A stretch of 64,000 bases of DNA. Source: Chloroflexota bacterium (lineage in GTDB: Bacteria > Chloroflexota > Anaerolineae > J036 > Brachytrichaceae). The first letter of the stretch is position 1. Each line of letters starts with the position of its first letter. The position numbers and the translations under genes are program-made. The notes beneath the pieces are model-generated. The model was not told where the DNA came from, made no database searches, and saw nothing but the letters and a program-made list of their open reading frames with translations. The DNA is taken from positions 1-64,000 of the forward strand of contig JANXLU010000062.1 in the NCBI GenBank assembly GCA_025354985.1. Reading direction: 5' to 3'. Below, piece after piece: positions 5,875-47,255 of this stretch.

Positions 5875-6847
5875 AGGCTAATTCAATTAGTTTGTCCAAC
5901 AGTGATGGATACGCCAAACCACTGGCGGCAAACAACTTTGGATACATGGAAATCTCGGTAAAACCCGGGATCGTATTGATTTCGTTGATATAGATTTCGC
6001 CGGTCGCACCGTTCATGAGCAAGTCAACCCTGGCCATCCCCCGGGCCTCGGCCAGGATTGCGACTTCGATTGCGGTCTCCTGAATCAAAACAACTAGGGC
6101 GTCTGGAATTGGCGCCGGGATAATCAGCTCGCTGGCTTCCGCGCCCTTGTCGAGATATTTGGCGGCGTAGGTGTAAAACTCGCGCTTGGGTTTGATTTCT
6201 CCCACGGCGCTCGCGATCTTCTCGTCGTTGCCAAGCACACTGACCTCAAGCTCGCGCGCATTTGGGACTGCCCACTCGACCAGCACCTTGTGATCCCACC
6301 TAAACGCCTCTGCAACGGCAGCCGCCAAGTCGTCGGCGCTGCTTACCTTGGTGATGCCCACACTGCTGCCCATATTGGCGGGCTTGACAAAGACGGGCAA
6401 TCCCAGTTTGTCCAGCACCCGGGCTGTGACCGTATTCGGTGTCGTCTTCCATTCTGCCGCGCGCACCACCACGTGCCGCACGCAAGGAAGATCGTGCGCG
6501 CGCATCACGTCCTTAAAGATGACCTTGTCCATGCCGACCGCCGAACCCGCTACACCCGCTCCGACAAACGGAACACCTAGCGCAGTAAGCAGCCCCTGAA
6601 CGCTGCCATCCTCGCCATTTGGGCCATGCAACAGCGGGAACACGCAATCAAATGTTTTGAGCTGATCGAGCGGAATTGCCCAAGCTCCCGCGCGGCTTAT
6701 GAACACGGGCGTCACCTCATATTTGGTGTCATCCAATTGCTCCATCACCGATGACGCGCTCATAATGCTGACGTCATGCTCGCCTGATTTGCCGCCGTAT
6801 AACACGGCAATCCGTTGCCGGCGCGTTGCGGTCCCGGGTGCGGTCAT
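5846..6847 (-). CDS. ddl: D-alanine--D-alanine ligase
   Basis: 333 residues; joins two D-Ala with ATP for the muramyl pentapeptide. The N-terminal lobe has VLYGGKSGEHDVSIMSA, then FPLLHGPNGEDGSVQG. The ATP-grasp lobe has FVKPANMGSSVGITKV and the metal-binding end INEINTIPGFTEISMYPKL. Length is normal for the family. It starts in a four-base overlap with murB (ATGA) and overlaps ftsQ. The His-containing LLHGPNGEDG loop and the Tyr/Ser residues are as in D-Ala-D-Ala enzymes; nothing points to D-Ala-D-Lac specificity. Confidence 0.95.
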   Translation of the reverse strand: MTAPGTATRRQRIAVLYGGKSGEHDVSIMSASSVMEQLDDTKYEVTPVFISRAGAWAIPLDQLKTFDCVFPLLHGPNGEDGSVQGLLTALGVPFVGAGVAGSAVGMDKVIFKDVMRAHDLPCVRHVVVRAAEWKTTPNTVTARVLDKLGLPVFVKPANMGSSVGITKVSSADDLAAAVAEAFRWDHKVLVEWAVPNARELEVSVLGNDEKIASAVGEIKPKREFYTYAAKYLDKGAEASELIIPAPIPDALVVLIQETAIEVAILAEARGMARVDLLMNGATGEIYINEINTIPGFTEISMYPKLFAASGLAYPSLLDKLIELAYESATPPQN

Positions 6848-7809
6848 GATGCGTCACCGCCTTCGATGACCTGTCGGAGCCCGGTCTGTCCATAGGCGCC
6901 ACCTTCCCACGCGCCAACCAGCTCCACTTCGAGCTCAAGCTCGATCTGAAAGCGATCCAGCACGCGTTGCCGGGCGAGTGTTACCAGCGCCATCACATCG
7001 TCGGCCCTGGCCTCACCCGTGTTTAAGAAGAAATTGGCGTGCTTGTCGCTGATCATCGCCCCACCGGATCGGGTTCCCTTCAACGCGCAGGCCTCAATCA
7101 AGCGACCGGCAAAATCGCCCGGTGGATTTTTAAACATGCTGCCGATGGTAGCCCCGGGTGGCTGCGTGGCCTTGCGCTGGGTGGTAAATTCCGCGGCACG
7201 GCGCTCCAGATTGGTGCGGTGGTCGCGCTTTAGGTCAAATAATGCATTTAGTACGATGGGTCGGTCCGCTTGGGATGTGCGCTTAAGCGCGCTCGTACGG
7301 TAATGATAGGCCAGCTGGCGCACGGTCCAGTATGCCGGCTCACCACCACCCCGAGGCAATATCTTTGCCATGTGCAAGTTGCTTGCCACCTCAAGACCAT
7401 GAGCACCTGCGTTTCCAACAACTGCGCCGCCAACCGTTCCAGGTACGCCGATGGCCCATTCCATTCCAGACAGACCGCGCTCAATACAATCGCGCGCAAG
7501 GGTGACCAACGCCACGCCGCTATCGGCTTCGACCCGGGCACTCACCGAACTAACGTTAAACTTTAGTTCCTTGCTGCGATTAATGATCACAAGGCCACGC
7601 ACGCCAGCGTCGGCGACCAGGATATTGGCGCCGCCACCCATGACGAGACAGGGCAATCCTGTCTCGTCTGCACGTTGCACCAGTGCCGCCAGCTCGTCCG
7701 AGGAGCGGGCCTCAATGAGCATGTCCGCCGGCCCGCCAATGCGGCTGGTGGTGTGCCGTGCGAGTGACTCATTTAGTCGGGCGCGCGCCTGCAGTTCTTG
7801 AAATTGCAT
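6844..7809 (-). CDS. murB: UDP-N-acetylenolpyruvoylglucosamine reductase
   Basis: A 321-residue FAD enzyme that reduces the enolpyruvyl group to make UDP-MurNAc. The FAD domain shows HTTSRIGGPADM and LVMGGGANILVAD. The catalytic part shows EWAIGVPGTVGGAVVGNAGAHG, YHYRTSALKR, and the proton-donor Ser in IGSMFKNPPGDFAGRLIE. SGGAMISDKHANFFLN is typical of the type II (short) MurB that lacks the extra Tyr loop. The start lies four bases after the murC stop, and the stop overlaps the ddl start. murC, murB and ddl are consecutive steps supplied from one transcript. Confidence 0.96.
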   Translation of the reverse strand: MQFQELQARARLNESLARHTTSRIGGPADMLIEARSSDELAALVQRADETGLPCLVMGGGANILVADAGVRGLVIINRSKELKFNVSSVSARVEADSGVALVTLARDCIERGLSGMEWAIGVPGTVGGAVVGNAGAHGLEVASNLHMAKILPRGGGEPAYWTVRQLAYHYRTSALKRTSQADRPIVLNALFDLKRDHRTNLERRAAEFTTQRKATQPPGATIGSMFKNPPGDFAGRLIEACALKGTRSGGAMISDKHANFFLNTGEARADDVMALVTLARQRVLDRFQIELELEVELVGAWEGGAYGQTGLRQVIEGGDAS

Positions 7810-9214: not shown

Positions 9215-9760
9215 CTAAATTACAACGATGAGCACAAACAACACCAAGGCGATCAACACCAACACCAGCGTGGTGCCACTAAAGTACGTAACCGCCGAGT
9301 TCGAGATAAAAAAGAAACTATCCCAACCATTCTGGGCTGCAGGACGGGTAAACAGCGTGGTGCCGCGGGCGGCGTAGGATTCGCCGCGCAAAATACCCAC
9401 CTCGTTTGCGAAATATGCCAATGAGCTAAAAATCATCCAGCCGTTAAAGCCGCCGATTAAAAATGCCAGCAGGCCCTCCTGATATTTGCCACTTCCCGAT
9501 GCCACTTTGTTACGGGTGAGGGCCGGGCCGGCATAGCCAAACAAGGTGATAACCAGAAACGGAATCGCTTTTAGAAACCAGCGATTTTCCAGGCTCCAAC
9601 CAGCCGAAAAACTGTCTATGGGCGCCTTGAAGAAGCTCAGAACGAACAGGGCAAAGATCATGCTAAACATAACCAGCACTTCGCGAATCCAGCCCCGGCT
9701 CGCCCCAACAAAGGCGATCAAAACCACAAAGAACCAAAAAACGACGTTTGCATTAATCAT
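9215..9760 (-). CDS. CvpA-family membrane protein
   Basis: 181 residues with about four membrane helices, of the colicin V production/CvpA family. The N-terminal pattern VVLIAFVGASRGWIREVLVM is characteristic: a membrane helix, then Gly-Arg-Gly-type basic loop, then helix. Helices follow at about 28-45, 60-77 and 160-181. It overlaps murG by eight bases and lies 17 bases before murC, so it is part of the dcw transcript. CvpA is not a usual member of this operon. Its position suggests a link to envelope synthesis, but no activity can be inferred. Confidence 0.75.
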   Translation of the reverse strand: MINANVVFWFFVVLIAFVGASRGWIREVLVMFSMIFALFVLSFFKAPIDSFSAGWSLENRWFLKAIPFLVITLFGYAGPALTRNKVASGSGKYQEGLLAFLIGGFNGWMIFSSLAYFANEVGILRGESYAARGTTLFTRPAAQNGWDSFFFISNSAVTYFSGTTLVLVLIALVLFVLIVVI

Positions 9761-10982
9761 GATGAATTACCTCTTCCAACAATGCGGCAATATTCCGCGC
9801 ACCATCCGATGTTTGGATGGATTTCATGGCTACGCTCATATTGGCCAGCCGGTTATCAGCGGAGAATAGATTCAGTACGGTTTCAGACAGTCCGCCTTGT
9901 GCGTTGTTCAAGTCTCCGTCCTCCAAAATTATGGCGGCGTCTCTACGGGCCAGATACTCGGCGTTTACCCGCTGATAGCGCCAGGCATAGGGATAAGGCA
10001 CAAGCACCGCAGGCAAACCAAGCAAGGGCAACTCGCCTAACGCGCTTGCGCCACTGCGGCAGACCGCTAGATCGGCCGCGGCCATTGCATGTGTCATATC
10101 GTCATGCAGATAGGGATATATCAAATAGCGTGCCTGTTCACCGGGTGATAGTGCCTGGCGTGCCTGATCCACTTCGCTCCAGCCGACCGTGCCGCTCACG
10201 TGGATCACCGTCACCTTTTGCAGCAGGGCGCCAAGGGCGCCGGTGACCGCACGATTTATGCTCTGTGCGCCGCGGCTGCCACCAAACACCAGAACCACGC
10301 GATCCTGATCCGCAATTCCAAAATGCGCACGTCCGGCCTGCCGATTGGTCGCAAAAAACGCCTCTCGCACCGGATAACCCGTAACCGTCATCTTACCGGC
10401 CGGCACATATCGGGCGCTGTCAGCGGTGGTGGTGGCAACGCGGGTGGCAAACTGATTCATAAACTTCACGGCCATCCCGGGCTCGATATCCGGCAAATAC
10501 ACCACACTGGGAACGCCGCGAAACTTCGACGCCACGCTGATGGGCACGCCGACGTAGCCGCCAGTCAACAGTGTGACATCCGGCCTAAACGAACGCACGA
10601 GACGATCGGCCTCAAAGAACCCGCGTGTCAATGCCAGAACACTGCGCGCCTTCTGCGCAGCACCGACACCAGCAATGCCGCCCGAATGAATGGCCACAAA
10701 TGGAATGGACGCCCGGTTTACCAAATCACCCTCCATACCGTCAACGCTTCCCACGAACAACGCGCGCCACGCCGGTGCGCTGTTCGTTTGCAAAGCTGAC
10801 CTCTCGCTGGCGGAGCGAGCGGCGGACATCGCGTCCGATGATGTTTGGCTGACCCGCGCTGAACTTTGGTGAGGCATCAAACACTTGAGCACGCTCAGAG
10901 CGGGAAGCACGTGACCGGCTGTTCCGCCGCCAGACACCAAGACGCGTCGCACGATTGGTTGTAGTGGATACATTGGTTTCAT
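9753..10982 (-). CDS. murG: UDP-GlcNAc:lipid I GlcNAc transferase
   Basis: About 409 residues from the ATG at 10982; an in-frame ATG nine bases later is equally possible. It transfers GlcNAc to lipid I to give lipid II on the cytoplasmic face. The N-terminal GT-B lobe has VLVSGGGTAGHVLPALSVL, later LLTGGYVGVPISVASKFRGVPSVVYLPDIEPG. The C-terminal lobe has LVFGGSRGAQSINRAV and the donor-binding CRSGASALGELPLLGLPAVLVPYP. After the GGGTAGH loop there is a roughly 30-residue Ser/Ala/Arg insert that normal MurG lacks. This insert lies where the reading frame overlaps ftsW by 242 bases. No Shine-Dalgarno is visible. Confidence 0.92.
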   Translation of the reverse strand: MKPMYPLQPIVRRVLVSGGGTAGHVLPALSVLKCLMPHQSSARVSQTSSDAMSAARSASERSALQTNSAPAWRALFVGSVDGMEGDLVNRASIPFVAIHSGGIAGVGAAQKARSVLALTRGFFEADRLVRSFRPDVTLLTGGYVGVPISVASKFRGVPSVVYLPDIEPGMAVKFMNQFATRVATTTADSARYVPAGKMTVTGYPVREAFFATNRQAGRAHFGIADQDRVVLVFGGSRGAQSINRAVTGALGALLQKVTVIHVSGTVGWSEVDQARQALSPGEQARYLIYPYLHDDMTHAMAAADLAVCRSGASALGELPLLGLPAVLVPYPYAWRYQRVNAEYLARRDAAIILEDGDLNNAQGGLSETVLNLFSADNRLANMSVAMKSIQTSDGARNIAALLEEVIHHD

Positions 10983-43044: not shown

Positions 43045-43785
43045 GTGTATCACGAAACCAGCCGAGCCGACCTAAACCAACACTTTGGATTTGATCCGGA
43101 GTTCAGCGTGGATGCCGCGGTGATGCTCGGCACCAGCATGGTGCCCCAAGCCTTGCAGCGCTTTGTAGAAATTCTGGGGCCCCTGACCACGGTTGCCGAA
43201 CCATTTATTGTCTTCAAGAATTACAAGGGCAAGTCACTTGGAATCGGCATCACTTATGGCCCCACCATGAACGCAGACTGTGTGCGCTTTATGCAAATTT
43301 TGGGAGCGCGAAGAATCATTCAAATTGGATACTACGGCGGTCTGCAGTCGCACATGCAGCGGGCGGATTTCAACTTGGTGTCCGAAGCGATTCGCGAGGA
43401 CGGCGCCAGCGACAGCTATCTTGAAAAGAATGTGGCGCTTCCGGCCACCACCACACTGGTCTCCTCGCTGGCGACACACTGCGCCGGTCACCCAGTCCAC
43501 CGCCTGCCCCAGCTGAGCATTGTCGGCGGCATCCTAAGCGAAACTGCCGAACAAATTAGCGCCTGGAGCAACCGCGGCTATGGCGGGGTAGACTTGGAAA
43601 CCGCAACAACGTTCGCAATTGCCCGCAGATTTGGCATCGATCATGCCGCTCTCCTACTGTGCAGCGATGTTGTCGTATCTGGAGACTCGCTGCTCCAGCG
43701 TATCACTGATGCTGATCTGCGCGAAAAATACGAGATCCGAAGAAAGGTGATGTTTGGCGGCGCTATAGAAGTCGCGTGCGGTTAG
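43045..43785 (+). CDS. Nucleoside phosphorylase-superfamily protein
   Basis: 246 residues from a GTG. Seen: AVMLGTSMVPQAL, KGKSLGIGITYGPTMNADCVRFMQILGARRIIQIGYYGGLQ and VDLETATTFAIARRFGI. These match the phosphate-loop, core and ribose/base-binding regions (a VDLE version of the V(E/D)ME motif) of the PNP/uridine phosphorylase fold. GALLLCSDVVVSGD-like end present. Substrate unknown. The last third is duplicated 3.39 kb downstream, and the terminator that follows that other copy has been precisely lost here. Confidence 0.78.
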   Translation: MYHETSRADLNQHFGFDPEFSVDAAVMLGTSMVPQALQRFVEILGPLTTVAEPFIVFKNYKGKSLGIGITYGPTMNADCVRFMQILGARRIIQIGYYGGLQSHMQRADFNLVSEAIREDGASDSYLEKNVALPATTTLVSSLATHCAGHPVHRLPQLSIVGGILSETAEQISAWSNRGYGGVDLETATTFAIARRFGIDHAALLLCSDVVVSGDSLLQRITDADLREKYEIRRKVMFGGAIEVACG

Positions 43786-43819
43786 CGTTGGGTCTGAATC
43801 TAGCGTGCCTTGCTCAGCG
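43483..43819 (+). repeat. Island flank repeat, copy 1 (337 bases)
   Basis: Covers the phosphorylase 3' end, its stop and the last codons of rpmB in antisense. Compared with copy 2 (46873-47255) I see five substitutions and the clean loss of 46 bases that form a terminator hairpin. Left and right of the repeat the sequences share nothing. Confidence 0.92.
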
Positions 43820-43919
43820 ATCCGTCGATGAGGGCGGCAAGGCCAACGAGACACTTGACGACTACATCGCCCTGCGCGCCAGCCTATATCCTAAAACGCC
43901 GAAAGGCCCCACTCCGTGA
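43820..43919 (+). pseudogene. Possible C-terminal gene remnant
   Basis: Directly after the repeat, one frame reads VDEGGKANETLDDYIALRAS followed by LYPKTPKGPTP and a TGA at 43917. The codon use looks like real coding sequence, but no start is joined to it and the family is not recognised. The next ~190 bases show no gene. Confidence 0.3.
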
Positions 43920-44109
43920 ACGCCGCCCTTCATCCAATTCGGATGCGTCGCCTCGGATCGATACCATCTACTGAGGACGCTAACACGACAATGGAAGCAA
44001 TCCCTGCAGCAGTTCGCCGTGTTCTTTCCCGGACGCGTACCCTTAATTGACTGCTAATTCGTTTACACACCTTTTGGGACACTCTCCAACTTAATGTTCG
44101 ACTGCTCAA

Positions 44110-44138
44110 ATAGAAAAGGCCTCCACATTGTGGAAGCC
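44110..44138 (-). terminator. Terminator of the island operon
   Basis: On the minus strand, GGCTTCCACA pairs with TGTGGAGGCC (one G-T pair) and is followed by TTTTCTATTT. It lies 24 bases after the last gene of the three-gene operon. Confidence 0.75.
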
Positions 44139-44161
44139 CTCAAAAATCTCCGATGCGTTCA

Positions 44162-44596
44162 CTACTCAACTGCTTCGGTAACCTTAATCGGGTCGGGAGA
44201 ATCGAAAACCTGAACAACAGAATTCTTGCTGTCCAAGAAGGTATACCGAAATGTCAGATCCCCAGTCGACTCAAAAAGAAATTGTTTCAGGACAATCGCG
44301 ATGTTTATGCCTCTCGCCACAACCTTGGCATCATAATTGAAGCCACCTTCGGCAAGGAGTTTCTTTGTGCCATTAAGCGTAGATTCAAGTCGGAACTTAG
44401 TAACTTGCAGCCTTTCAAGTTCATTTTCGAACTTGGCACGGAGAAGAATCCCAAGTGCTAGGCCTTTTGGCCACTTCCCTTTTTCGCTAATGGAAACCTG
44501 AAACTGAATCTGATCATCATAAAGTCCAATCAAAGAGTGCTTATTGCCAATCTCATACCGTATATCATCGCAAACAAGAAAATCACCGATTCGCAT
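44162..44596 (-). CDS. Island operon gene 3, hypothetical (DUF6941-like)
   Basis: 144 residues, no membrane segment. Starts MRIGDFLVCDDIRYEIGNKHSLIGLYDDQIQF, a pattern I associate loosely with the DUF6941 family of beta-rich proteins; the rest alternates strands and Lys/Glu-rich stretches. Its ATG follows the previous stop without a gap (TAAATG), with a GGGGGG run as ribosome site. Base and codon use are AT-richer than the host genes. Translational coupling suggests a fixed stoichiometry with gene 2. Confidence 0.7.
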   Translation of the reverse strand: MRIGDFLVCDDIRYEIGNKHSLIGLYDDQIQFQVSISEKGKWPKGLALGILLRAKFENELERLQVTKFRLESTLNGTKKLLAEGGFNYDAKVVARGINIAIVLKQFLFESTGDLTFRYTFLDSKNSVVQVFDSPDPIKVTEAVE

Positions 44597-45196
44597 TTAA
44601 ACCCCCCTAGCTTCAATATGCACTCGTTCGTCAGCAAAAATGGGTGTTGCTCCATTTTTTTGAGTCTGAAAATAAAGGACTGTAGTATTTGCTGTTGTTA
44701 TTACCCCTGCACTTCGAAACCCACTTTCTTCAAACGCCATCTTTTGCATAAATGTCTTTAGTGCATTTTCCAAATAAAGCTTCTGCGAGAGACCATATTC
44801 AAATCCGTTCTCTGCAACCTCAAGCAACCACGGAAAGATCTTCAAGAATTTTAAAAGCGAAACCCCGGCCGCAGAGGGGTTCGAAGATTTTGTCTTCCAC
44901 TTAGTAAGTGTTCTCTGAGGCAACTCGAGCGCCCGTTCTATAGCGGCCAAACTAACGTTGTTCTTTGTGAAATCTTCAAGTATAGAAACTACAAGATCCT
45001 CACGCAGTTTCGCGATTGCAAATTCAGCCGCCTCTTCATTTTCTGAAAAAAGATCCCCTTCAGAACCGCACTCTGCGCAAATATAGTTCTTTTTTTCGAG
45101 TTGAACATGGCCCCCAAGACTCTCTGAGATTGTCTCAAAGAAGCTATGTTGAGTGAGGTTCGGAGAACCGCACACTGGACAAACCAAATTACTCAT
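44597..45196 (-). CDS. Island operon gene 2, Zn-ribbon/HTH protein (MqsA-like plan)
   Basis: 199 residues. An N-terminal zinc ribbon has CPVCGS (Cys6, Cys9) and CAECGS (about Cys40, Cys43). A helical middle follows with a likely helix-turn-helix NNVSLAAIERALELPQRTLTKWK (about 80-102), and a C-terminal part of unknown fold (LYFQTQKNGATPIF). The zinc-ribbon plus HTH plan is that of MqsA/YgiT-type antitoxins, which bind their own operator. A strong AGGAGT Shine-Dalgarno lies nine bases before the ATG. It is the best candidate regulator for the palindrome upstream of the operon. Confidence 0.72.
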   Translation of the reverse strand: MSNLVCPVCGSPNLTQHSFFETISESLGGHVQLEKKNYICAECGSEGDLFSENEEAAEFAIAKLREDLVVSILEDFTKNNVSLAAIERALELPQRTLTKWKTKSSNPSAAGVSLLKFLKIFPWLLEVAENGFEYGLSQKLYLENALKTFMQKMAFEESGFRSAGVITTANTTVLYFQTQKNGATPIFADERVHIEARGV

Positions 45197-45208
45197 AACT
45201 ATATACTC

Positions 45209-45583
45209 CTAATTCTGTCTGTTACCCAATAGCCCCCCAATCACAAGGCTCGGGTCATTTTTTGAACGATGGAAAGACTTCACGATCCACGTTCCTAGCC
45301 GCTCGTTCCGTATTAGGGCAATATAGCCCAATATGCTCAAGGTTCGAAACTCATAGGCGTCAACGTAAAGCGGATATGACTTGTCAAAATTGTTCCGCCA
45401 TTCTTCTGTGTTGACAAATGATAATTGCTCCAAGCCACCATTACCAATGAATTGAATTATTCGATTTTTTGTCGGTAGACGGAATATCGATCGTCCATCT
45501 TCTTCGGGCTGCCTGAGAATAATCACATTTTGAGGTTCTTTGTCACAACAACGGAGGAACGCGCCGAAGTCATGTTTTGGCAT
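45209..45583 (-). CDS. Island operon gene 1, unknown
   Basis: 124 residues, soluble, family not recognised (PKHDFGAFLRCCDKEPQNVIILRQ..., then WIVKSFHRSKNDPSLVIGGLL). First gene after a consensus promoter, GGAG nine bases before the ATG, and 12 bases between its stop and gene 2. In size and place it could be the toxin partner of the Zn-ribbon/HTH protein, but no catalytic motif is visible. Confidence 0.68.
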   Translation of the reverse strand: MPKHDFGAFLRCCDKEPQNVIILRQPEEDGRSIFRLPTKNRIIQFIGNGGLEQLSFVNTEEWRNNFDKSYPLYVDAYEFRTLSILGYIALIRNERLGTWIVKSFHRSKNDPSLVIGGLLGNRQN

Positions 45584-45594
45584 GCGATGGCTCC

Positions 45595-45623
45595 AATATA
45601 ACCCAACGGATCATTTCTGTCAA
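45595..45623 (-). promoter_or_regulatory. Island operon promoter
   Basis: Minus strand TTGACA (45623-45618), 17 bases, TATATT (45600-45595): near-perfect sigma-70 type, 11 bases before the ATG at 45583. Unlike host genes, it has a full -35. Confidence 0.8.
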
Positions 45624-45627
45624 TAGA

Positions 45628-45646
45628 TTGATCCTTTAAGGATCAA
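45628..45646. promoter_or_regulatory. Perfect 19-base palindrome beside the island promoter
   Basis: TTGATCCTTTAAGGATCAA: nine-base arms around one central base, four bases upstream of the -35. A further GGATCA half-site lies in the promoter spacer (45608-45613). Placement fits an autoregulatory operator. Confidence 0.7.
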
Positions 45647-45690: not shown

Positions 45691-45780
45691 GTCTAACGCC
45701 ACGTTAAGCGGCTGCCGGAACGATAACGCTTGGATTGAAGATATGGTTTCATGGCAGTCCGCTTGAATGCATAGTTAGGC
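45691..45780 (-). other. Integron attC-like recombination site
   Basis: Read on the minus strand: R'' GCCTAAC (45780-45774), then TTCAAGCGG...CTGCC pairing with GGCAG..CCGCTTAA, then R' GTTAGAC (45697-45691), fitting GTTRRRY. The arms pair over about 20 positions with two unpaired bases on one side, and a 36-base loop. The extra C in the left arm sets the orientation as minus, the same as the island genes. Confidence 0.65.
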
Positions 45781-45806
45781 CGCACGTAATTGGAGCAATC
45801 AATGCT

Positions 45807-45896
45807 CGAAACCAGCCAGTGCAGCATCGCCGGTTGAGCTTCCGGCTATGCAACGATGGGCTTGAAAGTTGAATCTGCTGCATGCCGTGGTTAGGT
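45807..45896 (-). other. Degenerate attC-like site
   Basis: Seven bases past the broken gene's stop the minus strand has ACCTAAC (RYYYAAC). TGCAGCA/TGCTGCA and AACCA/TGGTT pair across about 80 bases, and an inner GCCGG/CCGGC hairpin is present. The R' end (GTTTCGA) does not match GTTRRRY. Confidence 0.35.
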
Positions 45897-45902
45897 CGTG
45901 CC

Positions 45903-46585
45903 CTATTCTTTGAATCTTTCCGCCCAGAGAATATCACGCTCAACTTTAAGCAATTGGCGTTTTTAAGCAATTGGCGTTCAAAAGCCGCTTTGGCATCTTC
46001 TTGTGGTCGTAGAGCCGATTCTTTGGAATAACGGATTTGCCGACGTTGATTCTCACCCAATTTGGAGTCGTAAGAGCCCAAGAAGACTTTACCGGCGTGA
46101 ACACTCTGCTGGCGGGCTTCAGTACGTATGGCTTTCATTCTGGCAGCCACTTCCCGTTTTTCGACTTGTAACTCCTTTTTAGGCTGGCGTAACTCTTTGA
46201 GAAGCACTTTTTGTTCTTCCGATGAAGTTGGCGAGAAATCCATGACTTCCTGCATATCGGACGCCATCGTGTCCAGAGTCACTTTGTGCTTTTGGTATTG
46301 CTCGATGAGCTGGGCTAACTCATTCTATGCTTTTCGCCGACTAGCCCTACGGGTCAGAAAGGATTTTTCTCCATGCGCCCGTTTTGCTTGTTCTAACCCA
46401 TCCGTTTGCCGAACAATTTCTGCATCCAGGTCCTGGATTACCTTCACGATTCTTTCCACTTCAGTTCGAGCACGTTCATCCCACGCCGGTACTTCTGCGA
46501 AGGTAGATAGTGTCTTGAACTCAGCCATCAATGCTCTGTAGATGCTATCGCTGTAGCTAATAACTTTTGTTTGTTCTGAGGACAT
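45903..46585 (-). pseudogene. Broken coiled-coil gene (amber stop and 17-base duplication)
   Basis: From the ATG at 46585 (GGGAGAG eight bases before) the frame reads 86 residues to a TAG at 46327-46325. It then continues in the same frame as NELAQLIEQYQKHK... A 17-base tandem duplication then shifts the frame. With the duplication removed the frame reads LLKVERDILWAERFKE and stops at 45905. The total minus 17 is 666 bases, exactly 222 codons. The encoded product is charged and helical throughout, likely coiled coil. No family recognised. Confidence 0.75.
45946..45979. repeat. 17-base tandem duplication
   Basis: TTAAGCAATTGGCGTTT at 45946-45962 is followed at once by the same sequence with one change in the last base. 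It disrupts the reading frame of the coiled-coil gene. Confidence 0.9.
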
Positions 46586-46664
46586 GAATCTCTCCCGTGC
46601 TGGAACATCGCTGAACAGTATATTTCTTGCAGTAAGCGTCCGTGCGCCTAAATTGCCGTGAACG

Positions 46665-46765
46665 GTCCAACATATGCATTACACGTATCTGCGCAGCAGA
46701 GTATGTGCTTCCCGCTACCTATACACAGCGCGCTGCGATCTAATCTTGCGTACTGTATGTTAGCG
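46665..46765 (-). other. Degenerate attC-like site upstream of the broken gene
   Basis: On the minus strand CTAACATA (from 46764) and TATGTTGGAC (ending 46665) are inverted partners. GTTGGAC fits GTTRRRY. Inner pairing (GCAG/CTGC) is imperfect. It lies where the preceding cassette's attC would be expected, about 80 bases before the gene's ATG. Confidence 0.35.
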
Positions 46766-46860: not shown

Positions 46861-47175
46861 GTGCTAGGCGGAGCCGGTCACCCAGTCCACCACCTGCCCC
46901 AGCTAAGCATTGTCGGCGGCATCCTAAGCGAAACTGCCGAACAAATTAGCACCTGGAGCAACCGCGGCTATGGCGGGGTAGACTTGGAAACCGCAACAAC
47001 GTTCGCAATTGCCCGCAGATTTGGCATCGATCATGCCGCTCTCGTACTGTGCAGCGATGTTGTCGTATCTGGAGACCCGCTGCTCCAGCGTATCACTGAT
47101 GCTGATCTGCGCGAAAAATACGAGATCCGAAGAAAGGTGATGTTTGGCGGCGCTATAGAAGTCGCGTGCGGTTAG
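46861..47175 (+). pseudogene. Displaced 3' end of the nucleoside phosphorylase gene
   Basis: Reads about 100 residues nearly identical to the C terminus of the gene at 43045-43785 (from GHPVH to the final EVACG), with the same stop. The 5' two thirds are missing; the preceding sequence is island DNA. Since it is followed by the intact terminator and rpmB, this is probably the original 3' end. Confidence 0.85.
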
Positions 47176-47255
47176 CGCTAACGCAAAACGCCCCGGTCGC
47201 GGGTGCGACCGGGGCGTTTTGCGTTGGGTCTGAATCTAGCGTGCCTTGCTCAGCG
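46873..47255 (+). repeat. Island flank repeat, copy 2 (383 bases)
   Basis: Matches 43483-43819 with five substitutions and retains the 46-base hairpin at 47178-47223 that copy 1 lacks. Confidence 0.92.
47180..47225. terminator. Bidirectional terminator, 21-base-pair stem
   Basis: Perfect arms of 21 bases (47180-47200 and 47205-47225) around GGGT, with A-rich and T-rich feet. It serves both the phosphorylase gene (plus) and rpmB (minus). Absent from the other repeat copy. Confidence 0.88.

Follow-up and report, generated by a model that had tools for sequence, protein, structure and literature searches.

A genuine attC site and probable integron cassette remains outside the complete integron of a Chloroflexota genome

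Introduction

The closest described relatives of the locus analyzed here are CALINs, which Cury et al. defined as clusters of attC sites lacking integron-integrase (quoted in PMC8618304 and PMC9024848). Such clusters occur widely, and they are proposed to arise in any of three ways, by off-target insertion, by intI loss or by rearrangement (PMC8618304). At the default setting of IntegronFinder at least two attC sites are needed for a CALIN (PMC9024848). At the level of the single site, attC sites with extrahelical bases in the T-N6-G geometry are excised efficiently by the several integrases tested (PMC3053210). Genes for IntI were reported in Chloroflexi in 2008 (PMC2426708), and Chloroflexota is among the listed integron-bearing phyla (PMC8618304).

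The locus lies in what we call the window, the whole 64-kb stretch of contig C61 that was analyzed. As in a CALIN, genes bounded by attC lie there with no adjacent intI, and an intI gene is present elsewhere in the genome. When the CALIN criterion was applied (at least two attC sites within 4 kb and no intI), we found one confirmed attC site, a second that is probably decayed, and no intI match on C61. The locus differs from a CALIN in falling below the two-site threshold, and single-attC element is the stricter label. Because only one attC site passes our covariance model (R1), the locus would go unreported as a CALIN at the IntegronFinder default. In kind it is an ordinary locus, a partly decayed orphan cassette locus of the single-attC or CALIN type.

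The intact site, at 45691–45780, resembles the attC sites of class 1 integrons (aadA1, blaOXA-2 and others; plasmid loci L033–L038) in its R boxes, stem plan, T-N6-G bulges, strand bias and R1 score (31.5 bits, against 31.4 bits for the clinical blaOXA-2 site, which is itself a training member). It differs from them in having another loop and in not being tied to a resistance gene, and its 3′ spacer is one nt off the model consensus. Chromosomal integrons, namely that on contig C58 of the same genome and those of relatives (G010, G017, G021, G026, G027 and others), share with the window locus the attC plan and the presence of intI in the genome, but the window locus is without intI or attI.

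Materials and Methods

A search of the window with Rfam at gathering thresholds returned only a tRNA and no attC match, and we therefore built our own covariance model, R1. The 25 attC sites of the training set came from class 1 integron plasmid cassettes, from an array on a Thiodictyon plasmid and from arrays of host relatives; the host genome was left out. Since MAFFT misaligns the loops of full-length attC sites, R1 was built from trimmed arms. On the searched loci R1 recovered most training sites at about 21–51 bits, almost always on the expected strand only. A run on the island with the filters off disallowed the long loop and lost even the true site, and was therefore dropped as evidence. 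For the fold, the plus strand (the bottom strand where cassettes lie on the minus strand) was treated as single-stranded DNA. Both strands of the window were also scanned heuristically for R boxes with paired inner arms.

Results

The site at 45691–45780 is an attC site

45691..45780, minus strand: attC site (covariance model R1, DNA fold, heuristic scan of R boxes and arms).

The preliminary description of this DNA had read the full attC plan on the minus strand of this segment, and every element of that plan was recovered. The R″ box is GCCTAAC (45774–45780), which fits RYYYAAC exactly, and the R′ box is GTTAGAC (45691–45697), which fits GTTRRRY and is complementary to R″. In an unconstrained single-stranded DNA fold, the plus (bottom) strand formed one long stem with the inner arms paired, around a variable loop of about 40 nt. 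Two extrahelical bases, T45758 and G45765, stand on the same side of the stem, with 6 nt between them (T-N6-G).

The scan for R boxes and inner arms found exactly one attC-like site in the 64 kb, that at 45691–45780. Taken alone the heuristic is less strict, as its minus-strand score of 34.4 was matched in 9 of 500 simulated windows (∼2%); the claim is therefore carried by the covariance model and the extrahelical geometry. A relaxed search for R boxes also scored the terminator palindrome of the phosphorylase gene (47176–47229).

With R1 the site was the sole significant match in the window, on the minus strand only, at 31.5 bits, with E-values of 7e-6 for the window and 4.6e-4 over the 4.19-Mb genome, both rough after a short calibration. 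The runner-up in the window reached 10.7 bits (E = 1.8). Because 31 of 60 genomes, a built-in negative control, gave no R1 match at E ≤ 0.01, the model does not fire at random. We conclude that the segment 45691–45780 is a genuine attC site of the integron type. It also confirms that reading raw sequence by eye can reveal such sites.

A probable decayed attC site follows a pseudogene

45806..45896, minus strand: probable decayed attC site (fold and position after a shifted-frame TAG; no covariance-model match).

45903..46585, minus strand: pseudogene for a hydrophilic protein, probably a coiled coil (list of open reading frames, repeats, frame arithmetic).

Two further sites had been proposed beside the main one. 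The first, at 45807–45896, has an exact R″ box (ACCTAAC, 45890–45896), and its R′ box (GTTTCGA, 45806–45812) is off consensus. R1 did not match it (about 5 bits in the filters-off run, which loses even the true attC), and its fold is good (z = −2.8). Two lesions interrupt the upstream pseudogene, an in-frame TAG (46325–46327) and a 17-bp tandem duplication (45945–45978). In the frame made by this duplication, a TAG at 45903–45905 precedes the R″ box by 6 nt, and the stop codon of a cassette usually lies close to such a distance before R″. At best, this site is probably a decayed attC that closes a pseudogene cassette. The pseudogene product gave no convincing match to a protein family.

The second site, at 46665–46765, was rejected as an attC: its CGCTAAC is not RYYYAAC, its fold is no better than that of shuffled sequences (z = +0.5), and R1 gave no match. 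Neither site is thus comparable to the main one.

The host genome carries a complete integron and a second orphan cluster

The host assembly (4.19 Mb in 98 contigs) is 95.8% complete and 0.86% contaminated. Contig C58 carries a complete integron, with an intI gene that scores 415 bits against a curated cut-off of 265 and two cassettes divergent from it. A GTTAGGC core stands at 6122, before a GNAT cassette whose attC (6639–6702) reached 44 bits with R1; the second cassette has an attC-like site at 7294–7417, detected in the scan for R boxes and arms. At the window no intI or attI was found, so that by the criteria for a complete integron C58 carries one and the window does not.

A second orphan cassette cluster lies on contig C76 (L085, 8659–10530), with an attC at 9752–9837 (32.4 bits with R1) and a likely attC at 9240–9347. 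Its order is a NADPH-F420-reductase-like gene, the likely attC, an open reading frame for a small membrane protein, the attC, a RibD-like gene and, last, a short attC-like end.

One family of palindromic repeats, CCCTCACAGGG...CCCTGTGAGGG, has 34 perfect copies on 16 contigs, C58 and C76 included, and the flanks of C58 and C76 correlate with the tetranucleotide composition of the window at 0.88 and 0.92, respectively. Because of this shared repeat and composition, C58 and C76 very likely belong to this genome and are unlikely to be contaminants. Examples of the repeat are found at 159–267 of L008 and 7199–7243 of L085; the window has none.

The preliminary description had looked for support to a covariance-model match at 45691–45780 and to further attC sites or an intI gene in the genome, and would have yielded to the lack of a match with no attC elsewhere. 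The match is significant, further attC sites are present on the other two contigs, and intI is present on C58. Its picture of a cassette fragment without an integrase holds for the island, where none was found, but not for the host, which has the complete integron on C58.

Integrons are routine in this lineage

Among 60 genomes, host included, intI scored over the cut-off in 20 and attC sites were detected at E ≤ 0.01 in 29. Integrons are thus routine in this lineage, and the earlier idea that the find would be unusual for the phylum is not supported; it is also at odds with the Chloroflexi intI genes known since 2008 (PMC2426708) and with the listing of the phylum (PMC8618304).

In 15 of the 29 genomes with attC, mostly drafts, no intI was found over the cut-off, and attC sites of this orphan kind seem to be common in the class. 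These genomes are G001, G004, G009, G015, G019, G020, G023, G025, G030, G036, G037, G039, G054, G056 and G059.

In the integrase tree, IntI sequences from several relatives cluster with those of Thermoflexales and Chloroflexi; that of the host pairs with the IntI of G021, a member of its family. This placement fits a Chloroflexota host. Our results add a Chloroflexota genome in which two cassette loci lie apart from one complete integron, and they break no rule.

The cassette remains lie in a foreign, rearranged island

43483..43819, plus strand: left copy of the phosphorylase-gene 3′ end, inside the full-length gene (43045–43785).

43898..43985, plus strand: 88-bp repeat, 91% identical to 1051–1138 of contig C17 (L080).

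46873..47255, plus strand: right-hand copy of the phosphorylase-gene 3′ end, including a terminator palindrome (47180–47225).

The island has a GC content of 0.45 against 0.56–0.58, and its tetranucleotide correlation to the host is 0.11 against 0.99 for the flanks. All its open reading frames are on the minus strand; the genes face the same way as the attC site, as had been noted before. It is flanked by duplicated 3′ ends of the phosphorylase gene (43483–43782 and 46873–47172) that are 98% identical. The left copy is without the 46-bp terminator palindrome, apparently lost by deletion between GCG repeats. Since the phosphorylase gene was unmatched in the three congeners tested, neither synteny nor an empty site could be used. 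The 88-bp repeat at the left edge is probably mobile-element debris. An insertion-sequence end at 43898–43985 with an inverted partner at 46758 was also suspected; it gave no library match.

A real attC site in a foreign island without an integrase makes a cassette fragment. We consider it very probable that the island holds integron cassette remains outside the integron proper, with one intact attC, probably a second that has decayed, and a downstream operon. The cassettes would be the work of an integron integrase, an enzyme that recombines attC as a folded bottom strand. They may then have reached the locus inside a foreign, AT-rich and rearranged segment, which is bounded by a duplication of the resident phosphorylase gene's 3′ end.

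Alternatively, the IntI of C58 may have inserted the cassettes downstream of the phosphorylase gene, at a secondary site, with decay of the island thereafter. Among the routes proposed for the formation of CALINs is off-target insertion (PMC8618304), and intI is present in the genome, but we think this course rather unlikely here: a 300-bp duplication of the adjoining gene is not a product of cassette insertion, we could identify no junction at a secondary G^TT site, and the 88-bp repeat suggests rearrangement. Because the end of the resident gene is duplicated, homologous integration or rearrangement is favored over simple off-target cassette insertion, and arrival within a rearranged segment appears the likelier of the two at this locus.

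The repeat could also have misled the assembly, joining an island from elsewhere through 300 bp of 98% identity, a length that is long for short reads in a 98-contig draft. Such an artefact is improbable, however, since SNPs and the 46-bp palindrome distinguish the two copies and contig C61 continues to 72.8 kb; even if true, it would leave the nature of the attC unchanged.

That the likeness to attC is due to chance or to a hairpin of non-integron origin, such as a terminator or the end of a mobile element, can be set aside as extremely improbable and already largely refuted: the heuristic score does recur among simulated windows and the phosphorylase terminator does score in the relaxed search, but against this stand the covariance-model E-values, the exact R boxes, the T-N6-G bulges, the agreement between site strand and gene strand, the intI and other attC sites of the genome, and the silence of R1 in 31 of 60 genomes.

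If the island is indeed a remnant of integron cassettes, its intact attC could still be a recombination partner in trans for the IntI of C58. With one intact site only, the neighboring genes could no longer be mobilized as an ordinary cassette without the use of a second site.

An operon lies beside the attC site

45595..45646, minus strand: operon promoter (TTGACA-17-TATATT, 45623–45595) and 19-nt palindrome (45628–45646).

45209..45583, minus strand: operon gene 1, 124 aa (list of open reading frames; no family).

44597..45196, minus strand: operon gene 2, 199 aa, with two CxxC pairs (weak similarity to CxxCG_CxxCG_HTH, the family of MqsA-type antitoxins).

44162..44596, minus strand: operon gene 3, 144 aa (sub-threshold match to DUF6941).

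44115..44141, minus strand: terminator-like hairpin after the operon.

No attC was found after the end of the operon at 44162, and the cassette status of the operon is therefore unproven. No island protein scored over the cut-offs in Pfam, NCBIfam or PADLOC. The 199-aa protein scored 23.2 bits against TIGR03830 (MqsA-type antitoxin), below the curated family cut-off of 61.8 bits, so that membership in the MqsA-type toxin–antitoxin family is not supported. Plasmids, species genomes (limited to close relatives) and viral contigs yielded no relatives of it, and 249 genomes of the class only a marginal match; the 124-aa protein had no match on plasmids. The AlphaFold models of the 124-aa and 199-aa proteins were unusable (pLDDT 42 and 43, respectively).

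The arrangement resembles mqsRA-type operons in its small first gene, the CxxC pairs of gene 2 and the promoter palindrome, but it differs in that gene 2 reaches only 23 bits against 61.8, gene 1 is unmatched, and a third gene is present. It is a doubtful proposition that the operon represents an undescribed family of stress or defence modules borne on cassettes, with an MqsA-like zinc-ribbon/HTH regulator and two partner genes of no known family, and that it was kept after its integron context decayed.

The operon promoter is sigma-70-like, matching the consensus at 11 of 12 positions. Directly upstream lies the near-perfect 19-nt palindrome TTGATCCTTTAAGGATCAA, which looks like a putative autoregulatory operator.
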